Part shown: positions 9,025 through 58,744 of the stretch, one piece after another
Numbering within the stretch: position 1 is the stretch's first letter
Layout: the number at the start of each line of letters is the position of its first letter
Origin: Polytrichum commune
Taxonomy: Eukaryota > Streptophyta > Polytrichopsida > Polytrichales > Polytrichaceae
DNA: 64,000 nucleotides
Direction: 5' to 3'
Assembly (NCBI GenBank): GCA_950295325.1
Contig: OX485807.1
Coordinates: 50,376,440 to 50,440,439 of the forward strand
Program-made: the position numbers and the translations under genes
Notes under the pieces: generated by a model
Told to the model about the DNA's origin: nothing
The model's input: the letters and a program-made list of their open reading frames with translations, nothing else
The model's database searches: none

Positions 9025-9260
9025 AAGATGATAGCAGCGGAAGTCTTGTTTATGGAGTCATTTCATGCTAGTATTTGAAAATTGCTTTAAACCAAGATCA
9101 TGTACTCTCAGTTCTTCATGTTCATAATCTCTATGTATAATAGAAATATCTATATTCATAACTTCATTTGATATAATTTATAATAAGCTTGAAGTGACAA
9201 CTATTTAATAAAGAATTGGAATAAATGATTGGGACAAAGCCTCTCATAGCTACGCCAACT

Positions 9261-9358
9261 TGTTTGGTATTTGGATAGAAAGTTATGGTCGATGCTGAGG
9301 GGAGTATAATATTAAAATAATGTAACTTCACTTAAGGATTTCCCATATACATATCATA
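9261..9358. repeat. Dispersed direct repeat, copy 2
   Basis: Diverged copy of 8495-8592, same orientation, with the same TGTTTGGTATTTGGA start and GAGTATAATATT core. Confidence 0.6.
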
Positions 9359-9883: not shown

Positions 9884-10265
9884 CGGTAGCAGGAAAGTAG
9901 CAGGAAATTAGCAAAAGCCAAGCAGAAACCCCACAAAGAGAACCACGGTAGCAGGAAAGTAGCAGCACATTAGCAGAATCCAAGCAGGAAACACCACAAA
10001 GAGAACCACGGTAGCAGGAAAGTAGCAGCACATTAGCAGAATCCAAGCAGGAAACACCACAAAGAGAACCACGGTAGCAGGAACGTAGAAGAAAATTAGC
10101 AGGATCCAAACAGGAAACCCCACAAAGAGAGCTACGGTAGCAGGAAAGTAGCAGAATATTAGCAAAAGCCAAGCAGGAAACCCCACAAAGAGAACCACGG
10201 AAGCAGGAAAGTAGCAGAAACCGAGCAGGAAAGTCTACAAGAGAACCATGGTAGCAGGAAAGTGT
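9884..10265. repeat. 62-63-bp minisatellite
   Basis: About 6.5 head-to-tail units begin at 9884, 9946, 10009, 10072, 10135, 10198 and (short) about 10247. Each contains CGGTAGCAGGAAAGTAGCAG, an ATTAGCA box, AAGCAGGAAA and CCACAAAGAGAACCA. Because 63 is a multiple of three, frames stay open on the minus strand, but these have no other sign of coding. A diverged single unit sits at about 8597-8665. The array ends about 300 bp upstream of the trihelix start codon, so it may lie in that gene's promoter. Confidence 0.88.
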
Positions 10266-39711: not shown

Positions 39712-40486
39712 ATGGCGGTTGGTGCGTGCCCTCCTCTGGAGGGCTTCAGCGACCCGCATCAGGGCACCTTGCGCCATATTCCATGTGCCGCAAACCCTAA
39801 TCCCTCCTCATTCCTCTTTGGGCCTCTGAGTGCCTTGTTCCTGGCCATAGACTCACAGTGCCGTTTGCAGGATATGGACGACAAGGTGGTCTACTACGTG
39901 AACAGGGATTCGCAGGGGTGGGTGGAGCAACACGTTAGGCGCCATGTCTACATCGAGTTGAAGTTGGAGTGTACTCGCAACCGCATTCGGAATGAACACA
40001 AAGGCCAAAGACGATTGGGTGTGCCTGTATTGAAGAGGATCCTTTCCAAGTAAACTGCGGCTGACAGATCACCGGTGTGGAGGCTGCCCCTGTGGACCAG
40101 TGAACTCTAGAGGGTTAAAGTGGCAACTCCCTGTGTATCCAAATTTGAAGACAACAAAACAGGGGAAGGATCTTAAATTGGCTTTGCAGCGCGGTGATGT
40201 GTGGGACAACCTGCAAGACGAAGAGATTTGGTTTAGTCTAAACCCTGAGCTCCTCGATGTCACGAAACCCCCCCCTGGAGCACGCGTGCAGGAGCGTTGG
40301 TTTATGGAGGCGACTCTGGAGACCTTGGCGGCCCAACCCGCACCAAGCACAGATTTCAGCCCTCAACAAATGCGGCTGCAAACACGGAGCAAAGCGGCAG
40401 TCCCTCCGCGGCAAAAAGCTGCCCCGCCCCTGCCTCCTGCTTATGTGGACATTCCCGATGACGACAGCGATGAGGTTCAAGCGCCC
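39712..40486 (+). pseudogene. MULE accessory gene of the outer element, 5' half (split by insertion)
   Basis: Starts MAVGACPPLEG, as the intact homologue at 42441 starts MAVG, and has the same ALFxAID block before MDDKVVYYVNRDSQGWV. Damage: a frameshift near 39995-40010, and a TGA replacing the second zinc-finger Cys codon (WVCLY, stop, RGSFPSKLRLTDHR). The frame then continues LPVYPNLKTTKQGKDL, WDNLQDEEIWFSLNPELLDV and PPPGARVQERWFMEA, parallel to the intact protein. It is cut at 40486 by the inner MULE; the reading frame resumes exactly at 50470. Confidence 0.85.
40478..40486. repeat. Target site duplication, left copy (9 bp)
   Basis: CAAGCGCCC immediately left of the inner MULE; identical 9 bp at 50461-50469. 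Nine bases is the typical Mutator target duplication. Joining the flanks with one copy restores the Glu-Val-Gln-Ala-Pro reading frame of the host gene. Confidence 0.93.
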
Positions 40487-40775
40487 CCCTAACATTACCC
40501 AACCCAATGGTCATAACTCCATTGCGGAGATCGAGGCGTTGCAGAGCTGTGACAGAGTTTTTTTCTTCCGGACCTCGACCCGCCCCGGGCAGAGCAATTG
40601 TGGGCACCGTCGGGCAGCCCCTGCCGCCACCGTGGACTTCGCTCCAGCTGGCACCGGTTGCCCCCACCGCCACGCTGGCACCGGTTGCCCCCAACGCCTC
40701 GCTGGCACCGGTTGCCACGCTGGACTAAACGCCAACCTGTTCGCCGGCAGCTCCACGTGGACGCGCCCATCCCTC
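40487..40775 (+). repeat. Left terminal inverted repeat of the inner MULE
   Basis: Begins CCCTAACATTACCCAACCCA. It matches 50172-50460 in reverse complement along 289 bp with two differences seen (GCGG/GAGG near 40525; GTGACA/GCGACA near 40550). It contains three direct GCTGGCACCGGTTGCC motifs starting near 40647, 40674 and 40701 (27-bp spacing), candidates for transposase binding. Confidence 0.93.
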
Positions 40776-42440
40776 GAGGGATGGAAGATGCCTTTGCTCC
40801 TCGGGTGAGCCATGGCCATGGCCAGCCACCTTCATTCTCTGTAACCTGGTGCTGCAATGGAAACTCGAAATTTTTGCTGCAAAATCGATTGTGTTTAGGG
40901 AATTGTTGCCTCACCATGGCTAGTGGGAGTGAAGGGGTTGCGTTTAGGCGTTAGATCGTACCAAAACTGCTGCTTGGAGAAGAGCATGTTCCAATCAAGG
41001 TGAGTTTAGTCGCTTGCAATGGAAAACCTCCGCATCCTTCTAATTGGTACTTCTGTGTGTACATTCTCATCGTCAATGTGCTTATGGCTTGATGTAATGT
41101 TTTCTGTGCAGGCGGGAGCGACGACTACCATTTCGCCGCATCAGATTCGGGGCTGGTTTAAGGGAGCAAAAGTCCACCGCAGGTGGTTACAGCAAGCGAT
41201 CCACATCAGGGCATCACGTGCCATATTGTAACATGTACCTCCTATCTTTTTGCTGCTCCTTTCTCTTGTTTAGCTTCTCTATATGGCAGTGGTTTGTGTG
41301 TGTTTAGGGTTGTTAGGCAGTGTTTAACTTTGAGTTTCTACGCATAGGGGTGAGGGTTCGGTGAGCCATGGGTTGTCTCTGCGCCGGGTTTTAGTATGCA
41401 TCGAATCTGGTCGTTTTGCGGCACTTTCATTTTCGTTTTTTGCGCATAGGGGTGAGGGTTCGGTGAGCCATGGGTTGTCTCTGCGCCGGGTTTTATTAGG
41501 AAGCGCATCTGGTCGTTTTGGGTTTAGTTTTGTTTTGTGCGCGATCGCTTGAGGGTTGGGTGAGCCATGGGTTCTCTCTGCGCCGGGTTTTAGTAGGCAG
41601 CTCATCTGGTCGTTTTGCGGTTTGGGGTTTGGTGCGGCATACGCATACGGTTTGCGGTTTGGTGCGGCATGGGTTGTCGCTGTCCCCACGATGTTTAGGG
41701 TGGTCTTTTGCATGCCGCTGGATCAAGCAAATGTACTAAAATGTTTCTCTCCGATCTCAGAATTCAAGTGCAAAAATTCCAGTCATTTTATGTCGGCTTG
41801 TCAGTGCTTGCGACTCTGCAACGTCCAGAGGTTGCACATCATGAGGTCCAGTGCATAGTTTGATGCTCTCCGTTGTTGTGCTCTGCTCTGTGTGGCCGAA
41901 TGCTAGTTGCAAAATTCCTGAGCTTCCAACTTAGAGGCCTACTGTGCTGGTAGTTTAGGGTTTGGGTGGTGGTTTCTGCGAATGCTGCGTTTGGAGGAGT
42001 GCTGGTAGTTGGGGAGGTTTAGTTGGGATTCTGAAGGTGGTGGGCAAGGACAGGAGTTTCTTGAAGCAGGTTGGAGGGTTCTGCCAAGGGGATCAGCTCT
42101 TCAACTTGCATTATGGTAGTTGGGAGCCTGAGATTGGTCAGGGTTCTGAAGGCTGCAGAGAAGGTCAGGAGTTTGTGCCCGGCAGAATATTCAGGCGATG
42201 GTGCATGCAACCGAGTTGGCGTGAAGGCAGAAGAGTTCCCTCCCAGGATAGTATACATGTTTATGGTTCTTTAGGGGCAGCATACACCTCTCTGTATGTT
42301 TAGGGTCCTCACATGAAGGCAAGGGAATGTGGATATGCAAGGACTACTGCTGGTTTTAGTAATGTTTGTAGGCATGTTTAGTTAGAGCATACAAGTGGTA
42401 GATCAAATTTCCGTTGACGCATATTGTAAAGTTGTTGGCC
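40776..42440. promoter_or_regulatory. Leader region of the MULE accessory gene, with tandem repeats
   Basis: 1.7 kb between the terminal repeat and the accessory gene. It holds about three copies of a 100-bp repeat (41343-41640) built on GAGCCATGGGTTGTCTCTGC and GCATCTGGTCGTTTTG. Several good splice-like sites (for example TTTCTGTGCAG|GCGGG at about 41111) suggest 5' non-coding exons. A block near 41195-41230 (CATCAGGGCATC...GCCATATT) is echoed in the outer element at about 39757-39782. Promoter function is inferred from position. Confidence 0.45.
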
Positions 42441-45400
42441 ATGGCAGTTGGGTCAATTGCTCCCGATAAACACTCCTATCAGCAAGGGCGCAGCTTCATG
42501 ATTCTTCCCCGCGTCTCAAACTGCCACACCCCTTCCTGGAATTCTACGGCCCAGTATGCACTGTTTCGGGCAATTGACCTGCATTGTGCTGTGCAGACTA
42601 TGGCAGCCGAGGGAGAGGCGCCGGTTCCCGAAGAAGACGAGGTCACATATTTCGTGAACAGAGATTCTGCAGGTTGGGTGCAGCAGACTGTGAGGAGGCG
42701 CGTGTACATCGAGCTGAAGCTGGAATGTACGCGCAATCGTTGTCGGGATGGGCAGAAGTCGAGAGACAGTTGGTTGTGTGTGTACTGCAAGTCTTCTTTC
42801 CCAAGCAAGTTGCGCTTGACGGATCATAGGGTGGGGGGTTGCCATTGCGGACCCGTTGACGCAACTGGCGCAAAGTTGGAGCTCCCGGTCTACCCCAACC
42901 TCAAAACAGCGAAGCAAGGTAAAGACTTGAAAGCAGCAATCGAACGAGGTGAGCGTTCGGTTTGGGACAATTTGCTGGACAATTCAATGTGGCTCGAGCT
43001 AAACCCGGAGCTAATGGAGGTAACCTACCCTCCCGCTGGAGCGAGAGTGCAGGTGCGGCGATTCATGGAGCGCTCAATCGACCGATTGAGAGCTTCACAT
43101 CGGTGGCCGGAGGGTGGGTCGCAATCGGCCCCTAGACCAGATCGGTCTCCCATACGACGTACCCCACCACCCCCCCCTGAAGAGGTTGTGGACCTAGGGG
43201 ATGACGGCACCGATGAGGCTGAACCTCCACTTTCTCGCCCCAGGAAACGAAGTCATGCACGGATGGATGAGGGCCATCGGCCTTTCACCTCCACCCGCCA
43301 GTGGAAGTCTGTGCCAAGGAGACACCACCCGACTCCGCCTCCACAACCTGCCCAAGCTGCACCTGCACCGCCTCCCCACCCCATTAGTGTGAAGCCCATC
43401 GCTTCTCGCAGCCCAACCCCAGAGAGGAGGGTCATCGTGGCTCCTCCTTCGCCCGTTCCACAGCCTGCCCCTACGCCACCTGTGACCCCTGTCCCCCCCA
43501 TGCAGGCCTCTAGAGGTGAGCTTGATATTGCTACGGCGTTGAGGAAGGAGCGACAAATCGCGTATGTTACAGCCGCAGCTGCAGCCCGTGGATCTGTGAG
43601 GATGGACGGGCCCAAGCCCGCTTTGAGGCCACTAATTCAACCTCCTGGCCTCTTTCATTTAATGCCATGTGGCTTGCTGAAATTTGATCTTGACAACGGC
43701 GACTACCATGCGTTTCAGGAGGAGGTTGCGGGTTGGAGGTCTGATCCGGCGTGTATGGACAGGCTCTTTGCTGCCTTTGGTAGATTTTCTTACCCCAAGC
43801 ATCAGGTAAACTTCTCCTAACCTGGCTCATTTCCTTCAATAAGTATGCGTCGTCAACCGGTTTTGGATGTTGTAGATGGAAATTTGTAACCTGAAATTTG
43901 TGCATCTAAGGATTTGCTGGACTTCTCTGGATTTAGTCGTCTATGTGGATGGCAGACAATAACGGACCAGCAGGCTGAAGTGAATTTAAGTCAGTAACAT
44001 GTATTGGATTAGGCATAATATGTTTGTAACCTGGGTTCTTTGTGTTCACGCAGGCAAAACCACAGGTTACGGCTGCAATCACCAAGATTGTCGTGGCAGC
44101 CATGAGCAAGGTGGATGAGGAGGCCACGCTGCACTCCGAGATCGAAGCCCTTTGCCACTATGTCCAGCATATAGTTCAATCACGGGAGATCATGAAGCAA
44201 CGCAAACAGTGGGAGGAAGACCGCCAGGCTAAGATTAACGACATGATTTCAACTGCCATGAAAGCTTGGGACATGGAGCACTACCCTCGTTTGCTGGAAG
44301 CCACATGGGGATGGCACCCTTTCTATGCCGCATTGATTTCTAACCCTCTGAGCGATAACTTCGTTCCCTCCTACCCTTTGTACCATTCAGTAGCTGAAGG
44401 TTTAGGAGTGCATGCGTCCCTCTTGCAGCAATCTCATGTTGAAAGAGCTTATCCTGTGCCATGGTCCGTGCTCCTCTTTCGTTGTTTCTTGAAAGAGCAT
44501 AGCGAGGTGCCCCCTCCGATCTCGCACCCACATAGGGGTGCCTCTGTGGACAACGTTGTGGGGTGGTTGAAGCTCGCCGAAGAAACCGAAGGAGAAGGTG
44601 CACGTGCGTGGAAAAAAGCCAAAGGTTACTTGAGAGGTGAGGGTTTTCTTGTGTTTGCGGGTGCCAGGGGAGGGGATTCGAAACAAGAGTGGGTTGCAGC
44701 CGTGGAAGCTGCTTGGATGGAGTTGAAACAACCCACTTCAGAATGGTGGGCAGATTTACGTTTGTGGTGCAACTCGATACAATTCAGAGCACTTATGGAC
44801 ATGGCGTTTCACTCCAAGTCCGAGTGGCTGAACGCTTGGGTGATTCGTGATCGGCCAAAGAGTCCTTCGGCCCCACTGGCATGTTACGATATGTGGTTAC
44901 AGCATCGGGAGGACTTGGACATTGGCTATGTTCTTGCGGAACCAGGTATTTGCACACATTTCTGCATTGTAACATATGGGTGCTCCGCCTTGAACATGCA
45001 TTAACCACTTGCATGCGTGCACTCCTTGGCAGATGTCATGGTCCCCTCGATGGAGCGTAATGAGTACCTGGAGGAGCTTCGCAGCATTGCCGACAACATT
45101 GTGAGAGAGCGTTTGGAGCAATCAGAGATGCTACCAACATCACATTCTATACCGGCAACCGATGTTACATCTTGCGACGTGCCCCAGCCATGTCCTCCAA
45201 GCCCTTGTAGCATAAGCACTGTTGGCAAGGCGGTAACACCAGATGACGTCCAACGCCCAGTGGAACCACCTGCGGCTGAAGACGCAAGGCACTCTCCCCG
45301 CTCACACGGAGTGGACGATGTTGTCCCGACATTTGACATCCCCATGACGCAGGGAAAGAGCCTGGAGGACTTGCCGAGCCAACTCGACTTTGAGTGGCAA

Positions 45401-45607
45401 GACTCGGTGTACCCCAACTCCACACCTGCCCATGTTACGGCACGCAGTCTTGGCGGAGAGTTGGACGTTGTTGGCACTTCCCGGCCCACCACGGAACACA
45501 ACAACGTGGGTGTAGACACATTTCTGCAGGTTTCCCAGATTGCCCGCGAGGCCGTTGTGGATGCCACACAGCAGCCACCCTCCCCCGTTCCACATTCGCA
45601 GATTTAG
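42441..45607 (+). CDS. MULE accessory protein with C2HC-type zinc finger (three exons, 943 aa)
   Basis: Exons 42441-43805, 44054-44945 and 45033-45607 join in phases 0 and 1 with GT-AG sites. The start is the ATG of MAVGSIAP, because the outer homologue starts MAVG at the same distance and shares ALFxAID before the later ATG (42600, the alternative). Residues about 113-136 hold C-x2-C-x12-H-x4-C-x-C (LCVYCKSSFPSKLRLTDHR), a likely zinc finger. A Pro-rich linker covers about 225-385. Exon 2 encodes a helical, Trp-rich domain (ATWGWHPFYAAL, WSVLLFRCFLKE, WWADLRLWCNS) that I do not recognise. The C-terminus is acidic with a conserved DIPMTQGKSLEDL box. Convergent with the transposase, as mudrB is with mudrA in MuDR, but I see no likeness to known mudrB sequence features. 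A role in transposition or anti-silencing is inference. Confidence 0.85.
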
Positions 45608-45980
45608 GCTTAGACTAGTGTAACAATCGCTGGAAGAGACTTAGGGCATGCATGTATGTATTCCAGGTAGCGGTGGATGTTCACCTACGATGTGTAAAAG
45701 TTGTAACATGGAATAACATTGCCCGCTTAGATTCAGCCAGTCCCAATCATAGAAGTGATGTTTGTAACAAAAGCATGTGATGTGACACCTGAACTAACCC
45801 TTTAATGCGACACCTGAACTAATGTGCACTTAACATGTATGGATTTCCAACTTGCATATTCATCGACTCATGTGACTCAACAAGCCATGCACAACAAGTC
45901 ATGCACGAATGTAAATGTGTTTATTCCGCATGCATTTGAGTGAAACTGAACATATTGCCAAGGTAACATGCAACAGGACA
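45608..45980. other. Convergent 3' region between accessory and small genes
   Basis: About 370 bp of non-coding sequence that must carry the 3' ends of genes on both strands. TGTAAC motifs recur (45622, 45702, 45763), one 14 bases after the accessory stop codon. No AATAAA-like signal stands out. Confidence 0.4.
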
Positions 45981-46352
45981 CTATGGGGCCCAAACAGGTC
46001 TGTAAACCTTAATCGGGCGTTGATAAGGCTTTAGCGGGCCTTGTGGGGGGGTTGGGACGATTGGAGATGGTGTAACCAGCTGCCGCACAACCTCTGCATG
46101 TCGGCGTCGGAGTCGAGATGTCTGCGCCGGGGAGAGCAACTTTGGAACGGCACCCGCTGTGGATGTCAAGGCTGATTCTGGTCGCTTGGAGTTGTCCACA
46201 CGCTGCTCGTCGGTGAAACGCCCAGGCGTCGTTGGGGGCGTGAAGAATTCGTCCTCGCTTGAACTGTCTTCAACGGGGCCGATAGCATCTGGACATCTAC
46301 AAAGCCACTTCCACACAGACGCGCCAACCCGCGCGACGTCAAAACGGGCCAT
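45981..46352 (-). CDS. Small MULE accessory protein (123 aa)
   Basis: Single-exon minus-strand frame: MARFDVARVGASVWKWLCRC at the N-terminus, then an acidic SSSEDEFFTPPTTPGRF box, a basic RLRRRHAEVVRQLV segment, and a C-terminus ending PIKVYRPVWAP. The outer element has a homologue at 53459-53838 in which the VWKWxCRCPDA, DEEFYTPPTTPPR, ARLRRRHAQAVRQLI and QRPVKVYRPSWAP blocks are preserved. Conservation of protein blocks between two diverged elements is good evidence of real coding. The family is unknown. The gene lies between accessory gene and transposase, on the transposase strand, 276 bp beyond the transposase stop. Confidence 0.8.
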   Translation of the reverse strand: MARFDVARVGASVWKWLCRCPDAIGPVEDSSSEDEFFTPPTTPGRFTDEQRVDNSKRPESALTSTAGAVPKLLSPAQTSRLRRRHAEVVRQLVTPSPIVPTPPQGPLKPYQRPIKVYRPVWAP

Positions 46353-46406
46353 GGATCGGGGAAATGGGGTTTGAGGCGCGCTAAGCGTGGAGGGAGATGC
46401 AGAAGA

Positions 46407-46447
46407 GTGCTAATGCTGATGCTAATGCTAATGCTAATGCTAATGCA
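46407..46447. repeat. (TGCTAA)n microsatellite
   Basis: About six hexamer units of TGCTAA with one TGCTGA, lying just upstream of the small minus-strand gene. Confidence 0.95.
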
Positions 46448-46628
46448 ACTTGTTGCCTAACCATATGGACCTAATGCGCAAGAATGGAACCCGTTTCCTT
46501 GGCAGCAGGTGGTGACCTTATATACCCTAAATGGGGCAACGTCAGCCCACATGTGGGAAGTGTCGTAACATGCAGGGCATGGTGTAACATGCACAGGTTA
46601 CAAAACGTGCTTGACCGTGACTAGTTAT

Positions 46629-49409
46629 TTACCGACGCCGCTGGAGAAAGTCCTTCATACGCTTGAGGGACATGTTGCTGCCATCATCGTTGGGCAAGAA
46701 ATGCAAGTCTACTTGGGAGGGCTCCACCAACCCATGCTTGATCTGAGCAAGCAATGTTTGTTGCTTCCCCTTTACAACGTGGAGGTCTGCCAGGAGGTGC
46801 TTGAGCAGGAAGGTATGACCCTTGGCCACCTCCACAAAATCTGCTGCGAGATGGCGAACATGATGTTCGATGTCCTCGTCAGATGGTGTGGCACGTTGGC
46901 TGCCATTAGCACGATTCGGTGTGGAGGTGGGCATTGCTGATCCGGTGTCGTAACAATCATCCAGAGAATGCACAATAGGGTCCAACATGTTACCACGGCC
47001 GCCCTCGGTTGTGCCTGCAAGGGATCCACAGTAACGTGTAATGGTTCCTTCTGCTAGGCTAGGATGGAGCATCATCAGTACTTTAATCTGATGTTTGCAA
47101 ATGTTTCCCTTCAGTGCCCACACGCAGTCACAGCAACCCCATTCACAGTCAGGGTTGTACACCTTGTAGCATTTAGCTACGTTCGTCTTGGAGGTTACAA
47201 TGGCGGGGCCGTCATCCGCAATGGGGAGAGTGACACAACTGTCCGGAATTTCTCTCGCTTTGAGAACGGCATTGATAACGAATTGCTCCTGTTTCAAGTT
47301 GGGGACGAACCCATGTTGTTTCCTCATCGCTTGGTACCAATAGTGGGAGAGGATTTCCTCCGTCAACTCGTATATGACCCAGTCTAAACGACGTCCATGG
47401 GCTCTTCCTTTTGAGGCGCGCAAGGTGGCTTTAAGGTTTGAGTGGTAGCTTTCGATTGCCGCGTTTGTGTCCTGCCCAGCATAAGGCAGGTTACGATGCC
47501 CCACAACCCACATATGGGTCTTGTCTGCCCATTGTTTGTTGAAATACACCCAAAAATTGCTCACAATGGGGAAGCTATCCATAAGAGCGTTTAGTTGGCG
47601 AAGAGCCCAAGGCCCCATTTGATCTCCCTGGGGGCACTTTGTGTCGTACATAATACGACCCAATCCCTTGAGCACACCAGCCCGGATAGCATGGTCTTTA
47701 ATTTTTGCCACCGCCTGTTTCAACCATGCACGACGGACATGCCAAAGGCAAAGAAAGACTTTCACTCCGGGCCACACCGACTGCAACCCTCCGATCTCGG
47801 CCTGCGCACAATCTGTGATGAAAGCATTCGGCATCCAATCTTCTTGCACTGACGCCAATTTCGTGGCGAGCGCCCTCATCCATGGTTCAAGATCGGGTTG
47901 CTTGGAACTAGAAGTAACAATGTATGCCACGGGAACTCCGTTCAGCCAATCATCAAACACCATCAAGGTGTAGAGCGGGAACTGCAACAAAAAGGATAAA
48001 TAATAACATTTAGAGACTGGGGAATATTAGACGTTACATATAACAGTGATGTAACATGGAGTATGGCAAAGCAAGTACATCTGACGGTCTGTAACACGAT
48101 ATTCCATGGAACATGATAGCAGCAACAAACCTTGTTCTCATTTGTTGCAAAAGTGGCATCAATTGAGACAGCTTTTTTATGTCCGTGCTTCAGCATCATA
48201 TCTTGTTGCCACGCTGTTTGGATGCCTATCGTGAAAGGAATGTTGTCGCGTGTAATAGCACTGCGAACATGTACGCCAGATTCTTTGTAGTAGAACACGA
48301 GGTGGGGATGTTCTTGCACCCACATGCGAACAGATGTCGCATCATTGTTGTCGCGTTTGTAGGTCTCAATTGCCAAGCGGCCAGCCACGTTACGGATGTC
48401 TTGGTCACAAATGAATAGGTCCCTTGTGAGCTCCTCCCCCCTTTCACACACTTCCAGGAATCGTTTCCTATGTTTTGCCATTATTTGCGGGATGGACAAA
48501 CCCAAACGTAGATGAGTCATGATGAATTCCCGAACATGCGGTGACAGATGGCTAGAGAATCTGCTTTTATGGCCAGTCTTTGTCACACCATGGCAGAAGA
48601 TCCCCTCGGAGTTGACATGGTGCATCTGGTGGTACGTTACTTCTGCGACCGAAGGCTCAAGGTACAGTCTCTTCACAACAAAACCGCATTGGCAACCCCT
48701 TCGTTGCCCAAATCCCCGCATCCTGGCAGAAGTGCGAGGACCTGAGTGACCCTTTCCATTTGGAACAAATTTGCCTTTGGAGTCGAGCTTTCGTTTCTTC
48801 TGGTACATTTCGTTTGTAACAACTGGTATGTGCGAGGCATTGTCATTTGGCCCATACTGGCAGTGATACCTGAGGCAGACAACAAGTGTGGCAAGCAAGA
48901 GTCAGGTAACAGACGCAACATTCAAGTTATAATGTTGTAACATTGCAACATGCAAAATGAAAATGGAAGTGCATGTTACAAACACACCTGATGACAGTAG
49001 AGTAGCTGTTCCAACGGGGGAACGCTAGTTTCCCTTCTTGGTTCGATGGAGTGCCTTGGCAAACAAATTTGCAGGGAGCATCAGGGCGGCCCTCCTCACC
49101 TTTCAGGAAATCCTCGACTCTTGACCAAGGTATGTAAGCAACCGAAACTGGCACATGAGTCATGGGGTCAGTCCTCCTCCCTTTCAGCCGGGTCTGCCTT
49201 GCCCACCATAGGTCAATGTGCATGAAGGTTCCCGCTTGGGGTCTCTGGACTAGACTGAGGAGCCGTTCAAACTCCCCTTTGTGTGCCTCCCGGTATATAC
49301 ACTCATAAGAGGGATCCGCGGGCAACGGACTGGGAAGTGTGTGGTCAGTGGCATGGTCTCCATCTCGGGTAACATCTACTTCAGTTGGCAATTCAGGAGA
49401 GGATCCCAT
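46629..49409 (-). CDS. MULE transposase (DDE, SWIM zinc finger; three exons, 837 aa)
   Basis: Exons 49409-48988, 48869-48131 and 47981-46629 (minus) join in frame across 118- and 149-bp GT-AG introns. The chosen start is the ATG of MGSSPELP. Residues 1-250 hold a Cys/His-bearing N-terminal region like FAR1/MULE DNA-binding domains. The catalytic core shows Asp378 (SIDATF), Asp444 (AFITDCAQAE), the C465-x2-H468 motif (LCLWHVRRAW) and Glu564 (NAAIESYHSNLK), the usual MULE DDE pattern. SWIM finger C671-x-C673-x8-C682-x-H684 (CDCVWALKGNICKH) follows. The Lys/Arg-rich C-terminus ends MKDFLQRRR. The enzyme should cut and join the element ends in the nucleus. The frame is complete with no stops. Confidence 0.93.
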
Positions 49410-50171
49410 TGACGTTGTCTTTTGGAGCACTCTCAGCACCTACACCTGGTCGTGCATGTAACAACGTTCTAAACCCTGGAAGCAATGAGGAGAACCCTAA
49501 ACCAAACACAAGGTGGGGAGTGACCAGATAATGGATAGGTTACAGTCAAAGAGTTGCGATGTTGTACTGTAGATCTAATAACATATATGAAAAACACAAT
49601 GAGTAAGGGCGATTGTGAGCAGCATGGGCGATGAGGGCGCGTTTGTCAAAGATTTGACAAACATGCGTTCATTACATCATTGTTGGGTTTACATCATTGT
49701 TGGGTTGACATCAGAACATGCAAGAGAGGAGAAATTTGAGTTAGGTTCACATCAGGTAATGCAAGAGCGGAGCAGATCTACATCATTACATCATTGTTGG
49801 GTTGGGTTCACATCAGTACATGGAAGAAAGGAGCAGATCTGCATTGTTGATTGCAGATCTGATTCAAGAGAGGTCGCATCACTACATTCAAGACAAACAA
49901 GTGCTACAGAAATGCAGATTCAGGAGTTCATGGGCATGTTACGAATAATCAAAAGCATAAAACCAAAGGAACCCTGCAAAGAAACGATGAATGAGGTGAT
50001 GTTGTCCTAAACCCATCGCCGCATCATTGCTCAGCAAAAAATGCAGTCTCTAGAGAATGAGCAGATTACCCACAAGCATCAGGGGGGAGGCGTTGAGTCT
50101 GTTTTTGAAAATACGCGCTCCCCGAGGGCGGTTTCCTAAACCAGTAGGGATGGGGGTGTAGGCCATGGCGG
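49410..50171. promoter_or_regulatory. Transposase upstream region
   Basis: 760 bp between the transposase start and the right terminal repeat. It contains degenerate direct repeats (about 49675-49870) made of ACATCATTGTTGGGTT, CACATCAG and GGAGCAGATCTGCATTG-like blocks. Presumed promoter from position; no TATA box chosen. Confidence 0.4.
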
Positions 50172-50460
50172 GAGGGATGGGCGCGTCCACGTGGAGCTGC
50201 CGGCGAACAGGTTGGCGTTTAGTCCAGCGTGGCAACCGGTGCCAGCGAGGCGTTGGGGGCAACCGGTGCCAGCGTGGCGGTGGGGGCAACCGGTGCCAGC
50301 TGGAGCGAAGTCCACGGTGGCGGCAGGGGCTGCCCGACGGTGCCCACAATTGCTCTGCCCGGGGCGGGTCGAGGTCCGGAAGAAAAAAACTCTGTCGCAG
50401 CTCTGCAACGCCTCGATCTCCTCAATGGAGTTATGACCATTGGGTTGGGTAATGTTAGGG
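50172..50460 (-). repeat. Right terminal inverted repeat of the inner MULE
   Basis: Reverse complement of 40487-40775 with two mismatches seen. It ends GGGTAATGTTAGGG, directly followed by the target duplication. Long frames read through it on both strands and are mirror images of those in the left repeat; they are not genes. Confidence 0.93.
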
Positions 50461-50469
50461 CAAGCGCCC
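50461..50469. repeat. Target site duplication, right copy (9 bp)
   Basis: CAAGCGCCC, identical to 40478-40486. Confidence 0.93.
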
Positions 50470-52894
50470 CCTCCCCCTCCCCGGCCGAACAAGCGGAGGC
50501 ATTTGGAAATGGACGGTAGCCACCGCCCCTCCTATTCGAGCCGACAGTTCAGAGCCAAGCATCGAAAACATACTGTTGGTGGAGATGGACGCCCACCAAA
50601 CCCTCCACGACCTCCACAACCTTCGGCTGCTGGCTTTCGGGTGCCTCCACCCCACCCCATTCGAGTTACACCGCTACAGAGTCGCCACCCCTCGCCAGAG
50701 AGGGTTGCCATTTTGCCGCCTCCCATGGATGTGCCGCACGAAGAGCCTGCGCCGCCCCCACCTACTTCACCCTCTTCGCATCCGCATGTCCAGCCCGATG
50801 CGCCACCGCCACCTGTTACAACTGAGACCCCAAGAGAGGAGCAGGATTTGGCGTTGGGTCTTCGAAAGGAGCGTCAAGCATTCTACCTCAAAGCCGCAAG
50901 TGCAGCACGCGGGACCGTGACAATGGACGTCCCAAAACCACCTTTGAGGCCCTCAATCCAACCCTCTCCCTTGTTTTATTTGATTTCTTGTGGGTTGCTG
51001 CAGTTTGATTTGAAGCGCGGCAAATATGAAGACTTCGAGGCTCAGATTCAGGAATGGAAATCCGCACGGAATTTCATGGACAGGTTGTTTGCCGCATACG
51101 GCAGATTTCATTCTGCATCACATCAGGTAACGACTATATGTTCTTTCCATGCTTCCGTGCTCTCCTTGAAGTTCTTTGAAATTCTTTGAAATTTCATATA
51201 TTATGCATATACTGTCTGTTTGGTCACGTAACATGGTTAAATAGGTGTTGCTGAAGTCGTAACATGTGTTCAGTGATGTTACTGTCGTCGTAACAACACC
51301 TGTATTTGTGGATGCAGGCCAAAGCAGGAGTTATACCGCCAATCACGCAAGCAGTGGTGGGGGTCGTCAACAAGATAGATGATGCCGCCACCGTTGTGGA
51401 CGTTGAGATTCAGGCTCTAACCACTTACGTTCAACACATCTTCGTCATGCGGGATGTGGTGAAGGAACGAAAGCAATGGGAGGACAACCGCCAAAAGAAG
51501 GTTAGCGAAGCCATTGCCAAAGCCATGAAACAGTGGGATGACAAGCATTACCCGTGCTTGTTACAAGCAACTTGGGGATGGCACCCTTTCTATTCATCTT
51601 TCCTTGCCAATCCTCTATGCGTCAACTTCATTCCCACATACCCTTTGTCTCATTCAGCTGTGGAGGGTTGGGATGCGCACGAGGTCGTATTGCAACAAAC
51701 CCAGGTGAAGCGGGTGTATCCGGTGCCTTGGTCCGTCCTGTTGCTTCGATGTTTTCTTAAGTATTACAGCCTCTTGCCGCCTATACTGTTACACCCTCAG
51801 AATGGCCTCACTGGAGCCAACATCACAAAATGGCTGAAGGTCGCGCAAGAATCTGATGGAGAAGGCCCGCGTACGTGGCAACAGGCCAAGTCGTACTTGA
51901 AAGAAGAAGGCTTCGTGTTGTATGCGGGGGCCCGGCCAGTGGACTCGCATGCGCAGTGGGTTACTGATGTAGAAGGTGCTTGGAGGGATTTAAGAAATCC
52001 TAGTCGTCAATGGTGGGCAGAGTTGCGGCATTGGTGCAACGCAACTCAGTTTAGAGTTGTTCAAGATATGGCGAACCATGACAAGCAGATGTGGATCCAA
52101 GCCTGGGTGATTCGGGATCCTCCCAGTGAGCCTGCACCCTCACTTGCACGTTACGAACGGTGGTTGCAAATTCGAGAGGACATGGACATTGGATATGTCC
52201 TTGCCAACCCAGGTAACATTCTGCCCTTTCAGTCGTAACATGATGCCTTGCCCGTAACAAGTCCATGGAGGATGGGCCGATTATAACAGTGCCCATGTGT
52301 GTATTGTTTCACAGATGTTATGGTCCCTGCGCCGGAACCAGCGGAGTTTTTGTACGACCTGAGGGCCGTTGCAGAAAATGTCAGCAGAGAACGTTGTGAA
52401 CAGTGGGAAGTACATCCTCCAAAAGCCGCCCAACGCGAAATGGATGCGGATGTTCGTGAGGTCGAGGTTACGAATGCCAACAACTCCGACAACGTTTGCA
52501 CCCACGGCACACCACAAGCTGCGGAGGTTGCGCACCCCCTAGTGGATTCTGATTCTGGACAGAACGCGCGGAACTCCCCCTCCTCAGATCCAGGCGTGAA
52601 TGTTGGATCTGCATGGCACATACCTATGACTCAAGAGAGATCGTTGCAGGACTTGCAAGTCAATTGGATTTGGACTGGCCAGAGTCGGTGACACCTTCTC
52701 CGACGCCCTCGCTTGCCGCAACTCGCAATTTGGGGGAGGAACTTGAAGCGGTCGGGTCATCTCAGGTTGTCGACACAGCCGTAGTAATGCCCGTGGACGC
52801 ATTTGCAGAAGTATCACTGATTGCACAAGAGGTTGTCACGGATGCTAGTGGTAGTCGTCCAGAGCTCATGGAGGAGCCGTTACATGCATTGTAG
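50470..52894 (+). pseudogene. MULE accessory gene of the outer element, 3' half
   Basis: Continues the gene interrupted at 40486. The rest of exon 1 runs to 51126 (ends FHSASHQ|GTAACG), exon 2 is 51318-52212 and exon 3 begins at 52315, with the same phases (0, 1) as the intact homologue. Conserved blocks include RGTVTMDVPKPPLRPSIQP, ATWGWHPFYSSF, YPVPWSVLLLRCFLK, WWAELRHWCNATQFR and DIGYVLANP. A one-base frameshift at about 52650-52657 breaks the DIPMTQ...L box from its continuation ASQLDLDW. With the damage in the 5' half this gene is dead. Confidence 0.87.
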
Positions 52895-53458
52895 TCTAGA
52901 TTACATGTTACATACATGTTACAAGTTGAATAATTGTTAATGCATTCATGGACTTGCAGGGAAACCCTATTTGGGTTTGCAATACTGATAGGAAGACCGC
53001 AAAGAACTGAATCCATTTAGCTTGAGAATGATTGTCGTCACTCAAAACTGTTGTAGTGCACACAGGGATGAACTGCGAACTCTGTAACAAGTGAAACACC
53101 TGTAACATGTGTCCAATGTGTTTTCATAATTGCAGAATGAGTGCATGTGTGTTTAGCATTGGTTTTGGTGTTGGTTTATGGCTATGCACTGCTAGATACG
53201 CGCTAGTTACATGCTAGTTATGGTTAGCTAACCATGCGCAAGTTAGATACATGTCACTAGTTTACACAATCGCGCCCAACAAATTTTGTGTTAACGACAT
53301 TGGAGGAGTGTTGGTACAAATGTTATGTGCAATGCAAAGAATAGAAGACCCTCGTTACATATGCAACACTAGAAAGAAAACCCACAAAAATCAAAATTGT
53401 ATCATTCATTTCAAAACGTTGCTCGCAATGTAACATGACATAGTCCCTGAAATGCAAA
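52895..53458. other. 3' non-coding region in the outer MULE
   Basis: No gene. Counterpart of 45608-45980, again rich in GTTACA/TGTAAC motifs (52903, 52917, 53082, 53102, 53428). Confidence 0.5.
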
Positions 53459-53838
53459 CTATGGAGCCCAACTCGGCCTATATACCTTCACTGGTCGTTG
53501 GTATGCCAACAACGGGCCGTGTGGAGAAGGCGTGACGGCAGGAGGTGGGGTTATGAGCTGCCGGACCGCCTGAGCATGTCGTCGCCTCAGTCGGGCGCTC
53601 TGCACTGGTGATAGTGGCCCAAACACCTGAAGTTTGTGGAACATGGAGTCAGCAGTGCAGGCGGGAACATTGGCCGTGGGGTGCTCATCGGCAACGCGCG
53701 GAGGAGTTGTTGGCGGCGTGTAGAACTCCTCATCGCTCGAAATGTCGTGCTCTGGTCCAATGGCATCAGGGCATCAGGGCATCTGCAAAACCATTTCCAA
53801 ACAGCTGCACTTATGCGGGCTAAGTGAAGGGGCGCCAT
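53459..53838 (-). pseudogene. Small MULE accessory gene of the outer element, frameshifted
   Basis: Homologue of 45981-46352. It starts MAPLHLARISAAVWKWFCRC and is thrown out of frame by an 8-bp tandem duplication (GCATCAGG repeated, about 53764-53782). Past this the correct frame continues IGPEHDISSDEEFYTPPTTP and later YQRPVKVYRPSWAP. Otherwise well preserved. Confidence 0.8.
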
Positions 53839-54012
53839 TGGGAGAGTGAAACAACATAGACACACTCCATGATGGTCACGCCCTTTATATAGGTAATGTG
53901 GGAAGTACTTGACGCACGTGGGAAAGGCTCACACATGCGCAGAGTGCTGTAACATGGGCCCCTCGCTCGTAACAAGTGCATGTTACAAAACAAGTCTGCG
54001 AACATTATCTGT

Positions 54013-54214
54013 CTACCTGTGACGCTCCAGGAAGTCCTTCCTTCGCTTCAGAGACATGTTACAGCCATCCTCGTTGGGGCTGAAATGCAGTTCCACTTGC
54101 GATGGCTCCACCAAGCCATGTTTCATTTGAGCCAATAGGGTTTGTTGTTTTCCCCGGACGATGTGGAAGTCGGCTAGAAGGTGTTTTAGCAAGAAAGTAT
54201 TGCCTCTGGCGGAC
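54013..54214 (-). pseudogene. Outer MULE transposase, C-terminal remnant
   Basis: The last 66 codons or so: NTFLLKHLLADFHIVRGKQ, LAQMKHGLVEPSQVELHF and MSLKRRKDFLERHR, closely matching the C-terminus of the intact transposase (46629 onward). The frame is still open. Everything upstream (catalytic core, N-terminus, right terminus of the element) is missing, with the break near 54214. Confidence 0.85.
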
Positions 54215-54228
54215 AACACAGCTATGTG

Positions 54229-54233
54229 AGCGT

Positions 54234-54271
<38 letters not shown>

Positions 54272-54285
54272 TGTGGAGAGCGGAA
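54229..54285. repeat. 7-bp tandem repeat (GGAGAGC)n at the truncation point
   Basis: About five tight units plus degenerate ones, exactly where homology to the MULE transposase stops. Confidence 0.9.
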
Positions 54286-54289
54286 AGGA

Positions 54290-54768
54290 ATTAAATTTAG
54301 TAAACTTCTCATACCAAATTTAGAAGCATTTTTTAAAAATATCGAATATTCTTAGTATATTCTAGATTCTCCTAAAAATAGAATAAAATTGTGACCTATT
54401 TCCGTGGAATATTTAGGTCAAAAAATAAATCAAAAGGCCCTGAATTTGAAAGGGTCTCATTACATTTGGAAATCATAAAGCGATAAAATTAAGATAAAAC
54501 AGAAAAGTATATGATAAAACCAATGATGAACCAAGAAAGAACGAATGAGAATAATTATATGGAGGTTGGTATAATTGAAGAATGAGTCAATTAAAATACA
54601 AAGGACGATCAACTTGCTTCGTTTTTATTCCATCAATTTTGTCTTTGTCCTATGTGTGAGTCAACTCTAGAACTTGGACTCCAACAATTATTGTTTGTGA
54701 TATTATCTTCAGCTGTATATAAATGAGGACATAAGTTATACTCGCATCCAATACGGATGTAGAGACAT
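54290..54768. other. AT-rich interval
   Basis: No gene or repeat recognised. Confidence 0.4.
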
Positions 54769-55310
54769 ATGCACACAATGGGAGAGGAGAGAGACATGTT
54801 TGCTGGCCTAGGATGGGAGAAAGAGATTAGAAGTCTAGGAGATCCCCATGTTCCCTTTAATACATCGTCGAAACATGACATAGGTGCTGGAAATCAACAT
54901 AGTGATGACTACGAGCTCACTCCATTTTCGCAGTCCACACAAGCATGGAGGTGGAGGATGCAGGAGGAGCAGAAACGATATGCAAAAAAATATAAAAGGC
55001 GAGGTGATGTGCAGGAGAAGGAGGAAACAAGGTGCATGAATAGTGAGGCAAATGATGCGGCTAATTTGAATGAAGATAAGGCAATCGACACGGAGCAGGA
55101 AGTCAAGATGGTAGGCGAATCTTCGAGGTCTTTGTCGTTTCGCGATAGGATGAGAAGATTATCACCGCATCGTCGTCCATTGAAGGATTGAATGAGGGAT
55201 AAAACGGTTTCGTACGTTGATTTGCTTCGACCGGGTCCACCTCCATCAAGAAGGGACGATGAAAAGAAGTCCGAAGCATATAGGAGGATGGAAACACGGA
55301 AGTATAGTTG
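54769..55310 (+). pseudogene. Charged open reading frame, possibly interrupted
   Basis: The frame begins MHTMGEERDMFAGLGW and runs 140 codons to a TGA at 55189-55191; in the same frame it continues MRDKTVSYVDLLRPGPPPSR and on to a TGA at about 55310. Composition is strongly charged (KKYKRRGDVQEKEE, then DKAIDTEQEVK). It lies next to, and on the opposite strand from, the second transposase pseudogene, so it may be a companion gene of that element. Family unknown; either a 140-aa protein or a longer one with one nonsense change. Confidence 0.4.
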
Positions 55311-55482
55311 ATAGACATAGTAGGCATGCTTGATACAATTCCGTATTGTAATAAAAGATCTTGAAGGGAATAAAAAAAATGCATGCGATTTTATTTATTA
55401 TAGCAAACAATTATGAGTTCACATGATGTTCACAATTGGCACGTCTAGTAGGACACAATGTATTGGTAGGCTGAGATGAATT

Positions 55483-58251
55483 CTAGGAAGTAGAATGTGT
55501 CAAAAGATCCCCTTCGAGGATGAGTTTGACTTCATTGAAGCTAAAGGTCGGGGTGTGAATGAACAAATTCACTTCAGGATCCAAATTAGAAACCTTGATG
55601 AAGATGTAATAGAGATGCTTACAATTCAGATAAGGATTTCGTTTGCGGCCGAACTTGGAAATCATATCCAAGAAGAATGCGCAATTGCACTCTGGAAGAG
55701 AACTGACTGTCATTTGGTAGATGGGGGATTGCGGTTCTGCCTTGGACTGCAGAGTGATGATGCAACCAAATCCCGGTTGAGGGATCATTGTTAACTTCAG
55801 AACAGTACCATGCATAGCTTTAGCAGAGGCAACCATCTGCCTCTGCTTTGCCGAAGGTGCGCTGGTGGATCGTCGAACAACCTTGGACAATCTTGTCGGA
55901 GGGATGAAGTCTGGGTTGTCTGGAATACGGATTCCAGACATATCCAGTGGGGGAGCGGAATTGGTGAAGAGTCGAGTTGGTGTGATGCGTTCCTTTGGTG
56001 GGAGTTGAAAACCTGCGTTTTCAAGCGCGAAGATCTCTGAACGGGTGAGGTTGGTCCCAATCTTGACAGGCCAAATTGGGAGAATAGGAGGTTTCTGATC
56101 ATCAGCAGAGAACGGTATGACCCATTTCCGACGAGAGCCCTTTACACAACGCTCGATGTCATCTGGGCAAAAGACGAATTCCATTCGCTTCTCCGCTTGG
56201 AGTGTGTAATGATGCCACATACCGGTGTAGGTCGGTGCAGGGACGCTCTTATTATTGGTGATGATTCTTGCGGTGCACTTCTTCTTCGTGCCAGCATGAT
56301 TAGCCCAACAAGACTTTCCTGAAGTATGGGGTATGCGGGCAATATGCCAAAGAGAGACATCTACTTTAGTTTCTTGTACGGCAGTGACACGCTGAAAACC
56401 AATTCCTGCTGGAGAAGGCACTTGAACCTCTTGAACACACGGGGAAGACTCCTCAATGATAGTAGATAGTGATACAGGTTGAGATCGAGTGATGCGCTTC
56501 GCGGGGGGAGGGCGAGAGAAGTTGACGCTATCGGGGCGGTGGGTCTCGCCATCATCGCCAATTGGAGTGTCGGGTCTTCGCTTCTGCGATCCAAACACCT
56601 CGGCGCCTTCAAGGTGTGGATCGCGAGTGCAAAATTCTTCCCCACCAGGCATGTCAAGCAACACCTTCTGCAACACTGTGGGGTCGCCAGTACGCTGAGC
56701 TCGACGTTGAGCTCCCCTAAACTTGAGTTCTTCTTTGCTTGGACCATCACCGCCAACTCCACCTTAAAAGAATTGGAAGTATGCAACAACTTGTAAGAAG
56801 GCGCGAATGTAGTCGTCCACGGTAGCAACGTAGAGGTCTCCACCCTTGTTGCCGGAGGCTTGAAGCCACTTGTTGTGGACGGACTCCGCAAGATTGCACG
56901 ACGGCATCTCGGCCAACTGGTCTGGGGTCAATACCTTTTCCTGATTGAAAAAATGGAGTATTAGAGCGAGCACAGAAAGATGAAAATAATGAAAGGAAAA
57001 AACAAGAAGGAAAGATAAGGGAGATGTACCAGTTCCATGAAACCACCCCATTGAAGGTAGCGGAAGTGCCAAAAAGCAAGCCATAGCTGGAGGTGCTTGA
57101 GACCGTCTTCACTTGTACAATTCGACGAAGACCACCAAGCCTTGATAGCTAGGTACCTAGTCTCGGCCTCTTCCATAGACGACGCATTCCGATATTGAAG
57201 GCAAAGGTGTCTATGTTGGTCTTGTAACTCATGTTTAATATACGATTTTGTATGTTTCTCGAGCGATTGTTTCCAATGAAAATAACAGGTGCGCTCACGG
57301 CCCTCCAGTGGAACTTTAGGATCTCCTGAACCATACACAATTCGCACAGCGTTCCAATTGGCTTGGGCACTGTCTGCCATGAAGCCAATGAAGTTTGGAT
57401 GTGGGACACCGTGCCGGGCCATGACTTGGTTGAGGTTCTGCCAGAAAAGAACTTGAGCATCCTTGTCCTCGGATTGGAAGTCGCAGCAAGCGATGGTCAT
57501 GATGCGCTGGTAGGTACCGTCGTATACGTGGCAGGCCATGGTGGTCCACTTGGCGACGCGTTTGACATGGTCAGACATCATCCAAGCATGCTCGAGATCC
57601 CCACCAGGTTGCATACGCCTAACCAAGTCGACCCCACTACCAGGGCCGACCTCAGACATCTTGAAGACGAAAACTTTGTCCTTCTCGTCACCCTGGCCCG
57701 GGAATTGATTACGTTGGACATAGGCCCAGTTGCTGACACCTCGAAGTTTGGCGATTCCATCCATAACCCCTAACCTACGTAAGTATTTGAAATTGGTAAC
57801 CTTGTTACGGAGGTGGGGGGAATTCAACTCCTTGCAACGATCAAAAACTGGTTCAAGTTCTTCCAACGAGAGAAGGTGATGAGGATCACTATCATTGCGG
57901 AGGAGGAACTCACCCACAAGGTCCTTGCTGGCTTCGAGGACTATTTTGCTATGAGTGGCTTGGGGCGTCCGCTCGACGTGCTCCTCGATGAGGGCGTCGA
58001 TGCGCTGTTGGCTATCTCTACAATTGCCAACCTTGACGGGATGATGATGGTTGCCCAGATGAATACAAGCACGCTGAGTGGTGCCTTTGCCGTGGACGTA
58101 GAAGATTTTGGCATGACATGGTGCAATGCATTTGGGAGGCTCCTTACATATCCGGCATATGAGAGTGGATCCCAAAGGCAAGGGTCCACCAACGGGGAAG
58201 GGCTCCTTGGTGAATCCGTCGAAATCAGTATCATTGACCGAGGAAGGGGTT
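55483..58251 (-). pseudogene. Second MULE-type transposase, one in-frame stop
   Basis: Exon A (about 58251-57030, minus) and exon B (56940-55483) are joined by an 89-bp GT-AG intron in phase 0. Exon A has a Cys/His N-terminal region (LICRICKEPPKCIAPCH, ACIHLGNHHHP), then HVYDGTYQRIMTIACCDF, FIGFMADSAQANWNAV and RTCYFHWKQSLEKHTK. Exon B opens EKVLTPDQ and has CNLAESVHNKWLQ, giving the D, D, E set of MULE transposases. A SWIM-like finger (CNCAFF... NCKHLYYIF) lies near the C-terminus. A TAA at 56764-56766 interrupts exon B; the frame on both sides is open. No ATG fits the start of exon A, so an upstream exon is probably missing. Not closely similar to the transposase at 46629-49409; a different MULE lineage. 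Confidence 0.82.
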
Positions 58252-58333
58252 TAGGGGTTTAGGGTTTAGGGTCCCCTTGCATAGAGAGTAGAGAGCAAGA
58301 GTAAGGGAATTACTGGGGGACCGGGACGTACAC

Positions 58334-58732
58334 ATGAAGGAACCAAGTGACAATACAGTTCCCACAATCGATGTAGCCACAAAGCGGAAGAGGAGAAAGG
58401 GAGGCAGGAGTTTCAGCACTTCGAAACAAAGGAAAATGAGAGAACTTAAGAAAAAAGATCTAACGAGCATAGAGGGAAGAGGGACTCCTTCAGATTTAAG
58501 CAAGCAGTGTCATGTGGATGAGATAGGATCTACGAATCCGCATATGAATTTGAAACCAATCGAGGAAGAAGGGGACGACAGTGGTTCACGCGCACCATCA
58601 ATGGCAGAGAGCGAGCATCGCACCAATTCTAATCAGAGCAACTCAAGGGAAGAGACAAGAGAAGACTCAATCAGCACAGTAAGCTTGTATTGGATGTCAC
58701 ATATGACAATTGAAGTAAAACTGAGATATTGA
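58334..58732 (+). CDS. Hypothetical basic/acidic protein or exon
   Basis: A 132-codon frame from ATG. The N-terminal part is strongly basic (TKRKRRKGGRSFSTSKQRK), resembling a nuclear localisation signal, followed by a Ser/Glu-rich part (EEEGDDSGSRAPSMAE). An ACA|GTAAGC donor near 58678 suggests the last residues may be intronic. It starts about 80 bp beyond the 5' end of the minus-strand transposase, so a divergent companion gene of that element is possible. Family not recognised. Confidence 0.35.
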   Translation: MKEPSDNTVPTIDVATKRKRRKGGRSFSTSKQRKMRELKKKDLTSIEGRGTPSDLSKQCHVDEIGSTNPHMNLKPIEEEGDDSGSRAPSMAESEHRTNSNQSNSREETREDSISTVSLYWMSHMTIEVKLRY

Positions 58733-58744
58733 TTTGTGTCACGT

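Follow-up and report, generated by a model that had tools for sequence, protein, structure and literature searches.

A Mutator-like element with three open genes

The window analysed here is a stretch of 64,000 nucleotides from the moss Polytrichum commune (C5:50376440-50440439 of a 408-Mb assembly). It contains a Mutator-like element (MULE) with a transposase gene, an accessory gene and a small third gene, and with a short word scattered along its DNA. The element belongs to a group of related copies that we call family 1. By analogy with a known plant system, we favour with moderate confidence the reading that the accessory protein may recognize the scattered motif of its own family and counter the silencing of that family's DNA. 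The motif, the wider accessory family and the insertion of the element inside the accessory gene of an interrupted relative are absent from the preliminary description of this DNA. The parts of the element and its flanking duplications are as follows.

40478..40486, no strand, left target-site duplication CAAGCGCCC
40487..40784, plus strand, left terminal inverted repeat (2 mismatches in the first 289 bp, 6 over 298 bp)
42600..43805, plus strand, accessory gene exon 1 (with a C2HC zinc finger, LCVYC-x12-H-x4-C, close to the N terminus and a proline-rich linker)
44054..44945, plus strand, accessory gene exon 2 (with the acc2 domain, also detected in other families)
45033..45607, plus strand, accessory gene exon 3, to the stop
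45981..46352, minus strand, small third gene, 123 amino acids
46629..47981, minus strand, transposase exon 3 (carries the second D, the E, the SWIM-type finger and the stop)
48131..48869, minus strand, transposase exon 2 (first D)
48988..49409, minus strand, transposase exon 1
50163..50460, minus strand, right terminal inverted repeat
50461..50469, no strand, right target-site duplication CAAGCGCCC

The element proper spans 40487-50460 (9,974 bp). The preliminary description placed it at 40478-50469, a span that does hold the element and also takes in both target duplications. It was right about the near-identical terminal inverted repeats (TIRs) of 289 bp with two mismatches: compared inward from 40487 and 50460, the termini are identical at 287 of 289 bases. 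The ungapped repeat extends to 298 bp (40487-40784 and 50163-50460) with 6 mismatches, and the extreme termini read CCCTAACATTACCC. The perfect 9-bp duplication CAAGCGCCC that it reported was likewise found at both flanks (40478-40486 and 50461-50469). A chance origin of the inverted termini is excluded because the same ends, for which the preliminary description proposed searching the genome, recur, 95-100% identical, at five further places that belong to copies on two other chromosomes.

The three genes had been called intact, and all are open, with four GT...AG introns and no hidden stops in the window copy. The accessory gene (plus strand; 42600-43805, 44054-44945, 45033-45607) encodes 890 amino acids and the transposase gene (minus strand; 49409-48988, 48869-48131, 47981-46629) encodes 837. 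The transposase matches two Pfam families above their cut-offs, MULE PF10551 (E 2.1e-13; 51 bits, cut-off 27.6) and the ZSWIM1-3 RNaseH-like family PF21056 (E 2.6e-8). A full D/D/E set and a SWIM finger had also been claimed. The triad is readable in the translation (SIDATF, FITDCAQAE, AAIESYH), as is a CxCx8CxH pattern in exon 3, CDCVWALKGNICKH; the SWIM label comes from this pattern, and the Pfam scan reported no SWIM model for the transposase. Among 13 other family-1 copies, the triad is conserved in 11 and the SWIM-type C,C,C,H set in 12, the exceptions being L026 and C7b, each of which is short of one triad residue. The C,C,H,C set of the accessory zinc finger is intact in all 13.

A MULE domain, long TIRs, a duplication of about 9 bp, a SWIM-type pattern and signs of mobility (near-identical copies and a clean empty-site frame, described below) place the element among the Mutator-like transposons. 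It is a structurally complete, structurally autonomous MULE that moved recently, and it may still be active, as the preliminary description suggested. Between the small gene and the transposase, at 46410-46450, lies a short tandem repeat of the GCTAAT/ATTAGC type, longer than in copies C2 or C7b.

A scattered word in family 1

The most over-represented 7-mer of the window element is GTAACAT, which occurs 17 times against 1.6 expected from word counts. In 500 dinucleotide shuffles its mean was 0.89 and its maximum 6. The best 7-mer z score was 12.2 in the element and at most 8.2 across 100 shuffles. The full family-1 motif is TGTAACATG, with a logo around the core T-GTAAC-A-T-G. Eleven of the 17 sites are noncoding and six lie in coding sequence (CDS); neither terminal repeat of the window element contains one.

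41228..41234, plus strand, accessory 5' noncoding
43564..43570, minus strand, accessory CDS
43994..44000, plus strand, accessory intron 1
44881..44887, minus strand, accessory CDS
44969..44975, plus strand, accessory intron 2
45162..45168, minus strand, accessory CDS
45432..45438, minus strand, accessory CDS
45703..45709, plus strand, intergenic
45963..45969, plus strand, intergenic
46565..46571, plus strand, intergenic
46584..46590, plus strand, intergenic
46987..46993, minus strand, transposase CDS
48051..48057, plus strand, transposase intron 2
48937..48943, plus strand, transposase intron 1
48973..48979, minus strand, transposase intron 1
49369..49375, plus strand, transposase CDS
49936..49942, minus strand, transposase 5' noncoding

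The noncoding gene bodies of ten family-1 copies, not all of them independent (the window element W, C2, C7b, L021, L022, L023 and L025-L028), hold 119 GTAACAT in 16,231 bp, or 4.4-9.3 per kb in each copy. Background was taken from 14 genome samples chosen blind at round coordinates, which hold 8 in 56 kb (0.14 per kb). Elsewhere along the window there are 12 sites at 50470-54300, the right-hand piece of a related outer element described below, none in 54300-64000 and 9 in 1-38000. A dispersed-word scan, which counts only sites with unrelated flanks and scores them as -log10P, returned GTAACATG or TGTAACAT as the top non-redundant 8-mer in 12 of 12 family-1 elements (8.2-17.7). These were W, C2, C7a, C7b and L021-L028; C1 and C3 were excluded as near-copies of W, and the degraded copy L046 was counted apart. 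Seven overlapping background composites scored 4.7-6.7 and four of five window chunks 3.9-7.8, while a chunk with part of the outer element scored 12.9. All 12 GTAACATG sites in the window element have unrelated flanks, and no tandem organization was found.

Such an excess could be a functionless by-product of descent or sequence make-up, left by tandem repeats of an ancestor, by low complexity or by common ancestry. Some motif sites do lie at homologous positions in several copies, and in family 3, introduced below, part of the sites fall within true tandem repeats. However, the counts hold after sites with similar flanks are removed, and the shuffles fall short of the observed number. The density also persists between copies whose silent sites are close to saturation or have reached it. 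In comparisons of the window element with L021-L028, synonymous divergence (dS) in the accessory exons and the core exons of the transposase ranges from about 0.8 to values too high to measure, and the same word still leads. Motif sites are retained far more often than neighbouring words in ten aligned pairs (39-78% against 0-14% for other 7-mers), a figure to be read with the caution that the aligner may favour identical words and that the pairs overlap; for these reasons we put more weight on density than on retention. We consider a by-product very improbable.

A telobox-like word, GTTTAGGGT, is over-represented in several family-1 elements, for example C2 and L023. Direct repeats at 41323-41617 were set aside as ordinary repeats.

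Other families carry other motifs

This genome, the only plant genome searched, has three further MULE families with diverged putative accessory homologues and different scattered motifs. Family 2 comprises L044, L047 and L051 (the last with about 74% DNA identity in the transposase). Its top word is GTGACACT, equivalent to AGTGTCAC, which scores 13.0, 15.5 and 9.0 and in the last case shares first place with the overlapping TGACACTG. Family 3 comprises L043, L048 and L052 (the last about 74-85% identical over longer alignable stretches), and its top word is TGTTCTGC or TGCAGAAC at all three loci (11.6, 11.2 and 18.2). L044 and L047 are near-copies (98.2%), as are L043 and L048 (97.8%), so that independent support amounts to one further locus in each family, L051 and L052. 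Family 4 (L045 and L053) has a weaker GTCCTG word in two forms. The motif of family 3 is TGTTCTGCA.

The motifs of families 1 to 3 are nearly exclusive to their own family. Counts of GTAACAT, AGTGTCAC and GTTCTGC are 12-25, 0-1 and 0-3 in ten family-1 elements; 0-2, 8-13 and 0-1 in family 2; 1-2, 1 and 18-33 in family 3; and 8, 7 and 2 in the 56 kb of genome samples. In a transposase tree, which leaves out L053 and carries a long-branch warning, families 1, 2 and 3 each occupy one side of a branch (support 97/100, 100/100 and 100/100).

Within the window, the 770 bp or so at 7949-8716 contain six AGTGTCAC, five of them on the same strand and the sixth on the opposite one, and no transposase of the query's kind matched beside them. 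The word TTCTGCTA occurs 14 times at 1238-10212, with flanks that are partly unrelated, and is possibly the motif of a further family. L045, considered as an accessory-free control, was dropped, as it groups with L053 and its accessory gene is diverged but present; its tandem repeats were set aside as ordinary repeats.

The accessory protein across families

A profile of acc2, the middle domain of the family-1 accessory protein, was compared with small search sets. It matched, by E-value, L047 (2.6e-8), L044 (6e-7), L052 (2.2e-6), L048 (2.4e-5) and L053 (8.2e-5), with borderline matches in L043 (0.0015) and L045 (0.019) and no match in the fetched stretch of L051. A C2HC finger (C-x2-C-x12/13-H-x4/5-C) lies upstream of acc2 in L047, L048 and L053, as it does in family 1, and was thus found at one locus in each of families 2, 3 and 4. 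The stretches fetched for L043, L044, L045, L051 and L052 gave no such finger. A Pfam search of the accessory members gave no family above cut-off. Profile searches against solved structures gave no usable match for exon 1 or exon 2 (best E 0.22 and 0.86). Two AlphaFold models of the accessory protein, built from two-row alignments of window sequences, were discarded at a mean pLDDT (model confidence score) of 42.1 and 34.8. At the family-3 locus L043, a Peptidase_C48 (Ulp1-like) domain, scoring 22.5 bits against a cut-off of 20.7, lies downstream of the accessory gene and on the same strand. The window element's proteins showed no Peptidase_C48 in Pfam scans.

Selection and exchange within family 1

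The ratio of nonsynonymous to synonymous rates (dN/dS) was computed against 11 relatives (C2, C7a, C7b and L021-L028; C1 and C3 were left out), which had been selected for matches to both the accessory and the transposase genes. Values were 0.05-0.31 for transposase exons 2-3 (0.05-0.11 against L021-L028), 0.14-0.32 for accessory exons 1-2 where dS was computable (0.14-0.28) and 0.10-0.39 for the 123-amino-acid gene (0.10-0.26). Accessory exon 3 gave 0.14-0.33, with one case of 0.52. Transposase exon 1 is the exception; its values are 0.59-1.03 for the three nearest relatives and 0.20-0.46 for the others. All three genes are thus under purifying selection among the relatives. Together with the conserved catalytic triad and accessory finger, this shows that the genes were functional in the recent history of the family. 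Several relatives carry stops and are therefore partly decayed copies.

The accessory and transposase halves of the element have been exchanged within family 1. L023 (C4:1608000-1617900) and L026 (C3:6597900-6607800) are 98% identical across 4.15 kb of small gene and transposase. Their accessory exons share only 64-66% identity, and L023 is there nearer to the window element (72-75%). The border lies between the accessory and small genes, with one motif throughout. Because the exchanged half is 98% identical, the transposase halves of L023 and L026 are not independent; nor are L024 and L025 (98%).

Motif, transposition and expression

Short non-autonomous copies of about 340-370 bp with similar ends also exist. 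None of the ten that were fetched contains GTAACAT, yet eight show flanking repeats at 8 or 9 of 9 bases; of the other two, one has no flanking repeat by end search and one locus ended before a repeat could be judged. The motif is thus not needed for being moved.

This bears on the possibility that the motifs, inside the element, are bound by the family's own transposase, or by a complex of transposase and accessory protein, and aid transposition, auto-regulation or transposase-driven demethylation. The maize transposase MURA is reported to cause hypomethylation of TIRs (PMC10398659), the extreme termini of the window element resemble the motif core (CTAACAT against GTAACAT), and transposase and accessory protein diverge in step across families. 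The motif is nevertheless missing from the terminal repeats and lies mid-element in introns and intergenic DNA, and the motif-free short copies with flanking repeats also speak against it. We regard this explanation as unlikely.

Alternatively, the motifs could be sites for host transcription or splicing factors that serve each family's expression, with the accessory protein doing something else, for example helping transposition as the mudrB product does. The density of the motif in introns and near gene ends would fit this, as would the enrichment of a telobox-like word. But the motif stands on both strands and between convergent genes, in no single fixed place, and background DNA is poor in it. 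Families of like gene layout also use different motifs, which a shared host factor would not require. We judge this explanation quite unlikely.

Proposed role of the accessory protein

The reading that we prefer, a motif-reading and anti-silencing accessory protein, was suggested by the resemblance to VANC and its targets of a dispersed, noncoding, family-specific word that persists as its surroundings change, together with a fast-diverging second protein. The accessory protein would bind the motif sites of its own family (TGTAACATG in family 1). Binding would protect that family's DNA from silencing by the host through DNA methylation and heterochromatin, or release it from such silencing, and the transposase and accessory genes would then be expressed. 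Protein and motif would evolve together, with the result that a family opens its own copies and no others. The transposase would cut and paste at the terminal repeats, leaving 9-bp target duplications, and short non-autonomous copies that share only the ends would ride on it with no need of the motif. A helper role of the 123-amino-acid protein, for transposase or accessory protein, is a guess.

The likeness to the VANC system of VANDAL (Hiun) elements has several parts. There (PMC5735166 and PMC10398659), a MULE encodes a protein besides its transposase, VANDALs have three open reading frames (VANA, VANB and VANC), and a short motif of 8-9 bp is enriched in the noncoding DNA of the protein's own family. 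The Arabidopsis targets given in PMC5735166 are YAGTATTAY for VANC21 and AGTTGTCC/AGTTGTAC for VANC6. Related families differ in their motifs, and here three motifs are clear and nearly exclusive while a fourth is weak. The systems differ in host, Arabidopsis there and a moss here, and in the accessory protein, which here carries a C2HC zinc finger and matches no Pfam family above cut-off. A genome search for DUF1985, presumably a VANC-related Pfam family, gave no match, and the controls of that search were equally silent.

A number of observations weigh against the preferred reading. That the accessory protein would be the motif reader, as opposed to the transposase, the small protein or a host factor, we infer from co-variation alone, and transposase and accessory protein change together across three or four families. 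Their constant coupling is partly a matter of choice, the family-1 relatives having been selected for both genes, and no clearly accessory-free MULE stands among the compared loci, since L045 carries a diverged accessory gene. The accessory proteins of different families resemble each other little: hhalign gave 94.5% and 87.7%, but only 1.6% when family 2 was compared directly with family 3, a comparison that fails. Homology of the accessory proteins is thus likely rather than certain. The motif evidence is itself uneven. In the CDS of the same ten copies GTAACAT reaches 0.2-1.1 per kb, above background; the degraded copy L046 has 7 GTAACAT and another top word (5.8); AGTGTCAC is not rare in the genome samples (7 in 56 kb); and the family-4 motif is weak, at 7.8 and 6.8 against backgrounds of 4.7-6.7 and one window chunk at 7.8. 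The telobox-like TTTAGGGT is a second over-represented word in several family-1 elements, so a repeated word is not necessarily a target of the accessory protein. Finally, TIRs are degenerate in VANDALs and long and near-perfect here, and VANC targets lie in tandem repeats whereas the motif here is mostly dispersed. Given the long TIRs, the sites mostly outside tandem repeats and an accessory protein with no detected kinship to VANC, the element does not qualify as a VANDAL.

Other systems share single features. MuDR of maize has long TIRs and 9-bp duplications, and we know of no scattered internal motifs in it. Like the window element, it is an autonomous MULE with a second gene, mudrB, beside the transposase (PMC6446971). 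The KIU-carrying Vandals, in which VANC has a captured Ulp1 domain according to PMC13317346, recall the Ulp1-like domain near the accessory gene of family 3; they differ in that Ulp1-like domain and accessory protein are known here as neighbours only, and that the window element's proteins lack such a domain in our scans. Fungal DNA transposons with a TET/JBP dioxygenase also encode a protein that may act against DNA methylation (PMC12730594), in another host kingdom and with an enzyme family that was not seen in Pfam scans of the window element's open reading frames.

How selfish DNA can evade silencing and yet leave the rest of the genome closed is a question of current interest. We see about an even chance that sequence-specific anti-silencing also operates in a non-flowering plant, through a different zinc-finger family of at least four MULE lineages, each with an address of 7-9 bp. 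To our knowledge, such anti-silencing by transposons is known from eudicot VANDALs only, VANC of Arabidopsis being the best-studied case. Our searches of an open-access library whose coverage excludes the key VANC papers of 2013 and 2022 gave no bryophyte report of such a system, which is weak evidence that none has been published. If the proposal is true, anti-silencing either arose twice or is a system as old as land plants, which bears on whether it is a eudicot speciality or a general Mutator habit. One genome with several families, a common protein architecture and different readable motifs would be a natural series for the study of target change.

Recent movement and the insertion site

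The preliminary description took near-identical ends and a clean empty-site frame as signs of recent movement, and both the frame and the conclusion hold up. Joining the flanks with one copy of the duplication gives a single continuous accessory-type frame. A firmer basis than terminal identity alone is that two other copies, each with flanking repeats of its own, are near-identical to the window element. The copy on C1 (28883655-28893621) has its own 9-bp duplication, CACTTTTAG, and its accessory frame is broken near residue 365. The copy on C3 (19731381-19748813) shares 8 bp, ACTTGAAC, between its two flanks. Differences at aligned bases number 32 of 9,957 (window and C1), 31 of 9,630 (window and C3) and 41 of 9,625 (C1 and C3), so that both copies are about 0.3% diverged from the window element. 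Under an assumed rate of 7e-9 substitutions per site and year, which is not derived from mosses, this corresponds to a few hundred thousand years.

The C3 copy is split by an insertion of about 7 kb. It has a composite end, with an extra inverted right terminus of about 317 bp outside its left terminus, and it is the outer ends that share the 8 bp.

The insertion site is the accessory gene of a related family-1 (outer) element, whose frame was already broken before the insertion. The parts of the outer element in the window are as follows.

39877..40486, plus strand, left part of the accessory gene of the outer (target) family-1 element, interrupted by the insertion, with a frame break
50491..52861, plus strand, remainder of the accessory gene (matching pieces 50491-51126, 51318-52211 and 52317-52861)
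53462..53838, minus strand, small gene
54016..54219, minus strand, C-terminal end of the transposase

Beyond the window, C5:50450139-50451317 holds a transposase match with 83% identity, which may be the rest of the outer element's transposase.

The seven largest contigs of the assembly together make up about 406 of its 408 Mb, which fits seven chromosomes. A moss host is also likely from a light-harvesting (LHCII) protein of the genome: among single-domain chains of solved structures it scores best with 8htu and 7xqp of Physcomitrium patens (480 and 478 bits, next 447), while the higher 546 bits of a 620-residue chain of 9vfj apply to the chain as a whole, with no single stretch given, and are not comparable. 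Elsewhere on C5, 95 kb at 1751760-1846160 contain at least 14 light-harvesting matches whose domain scores are identical, in what looks like a tandem expansion.

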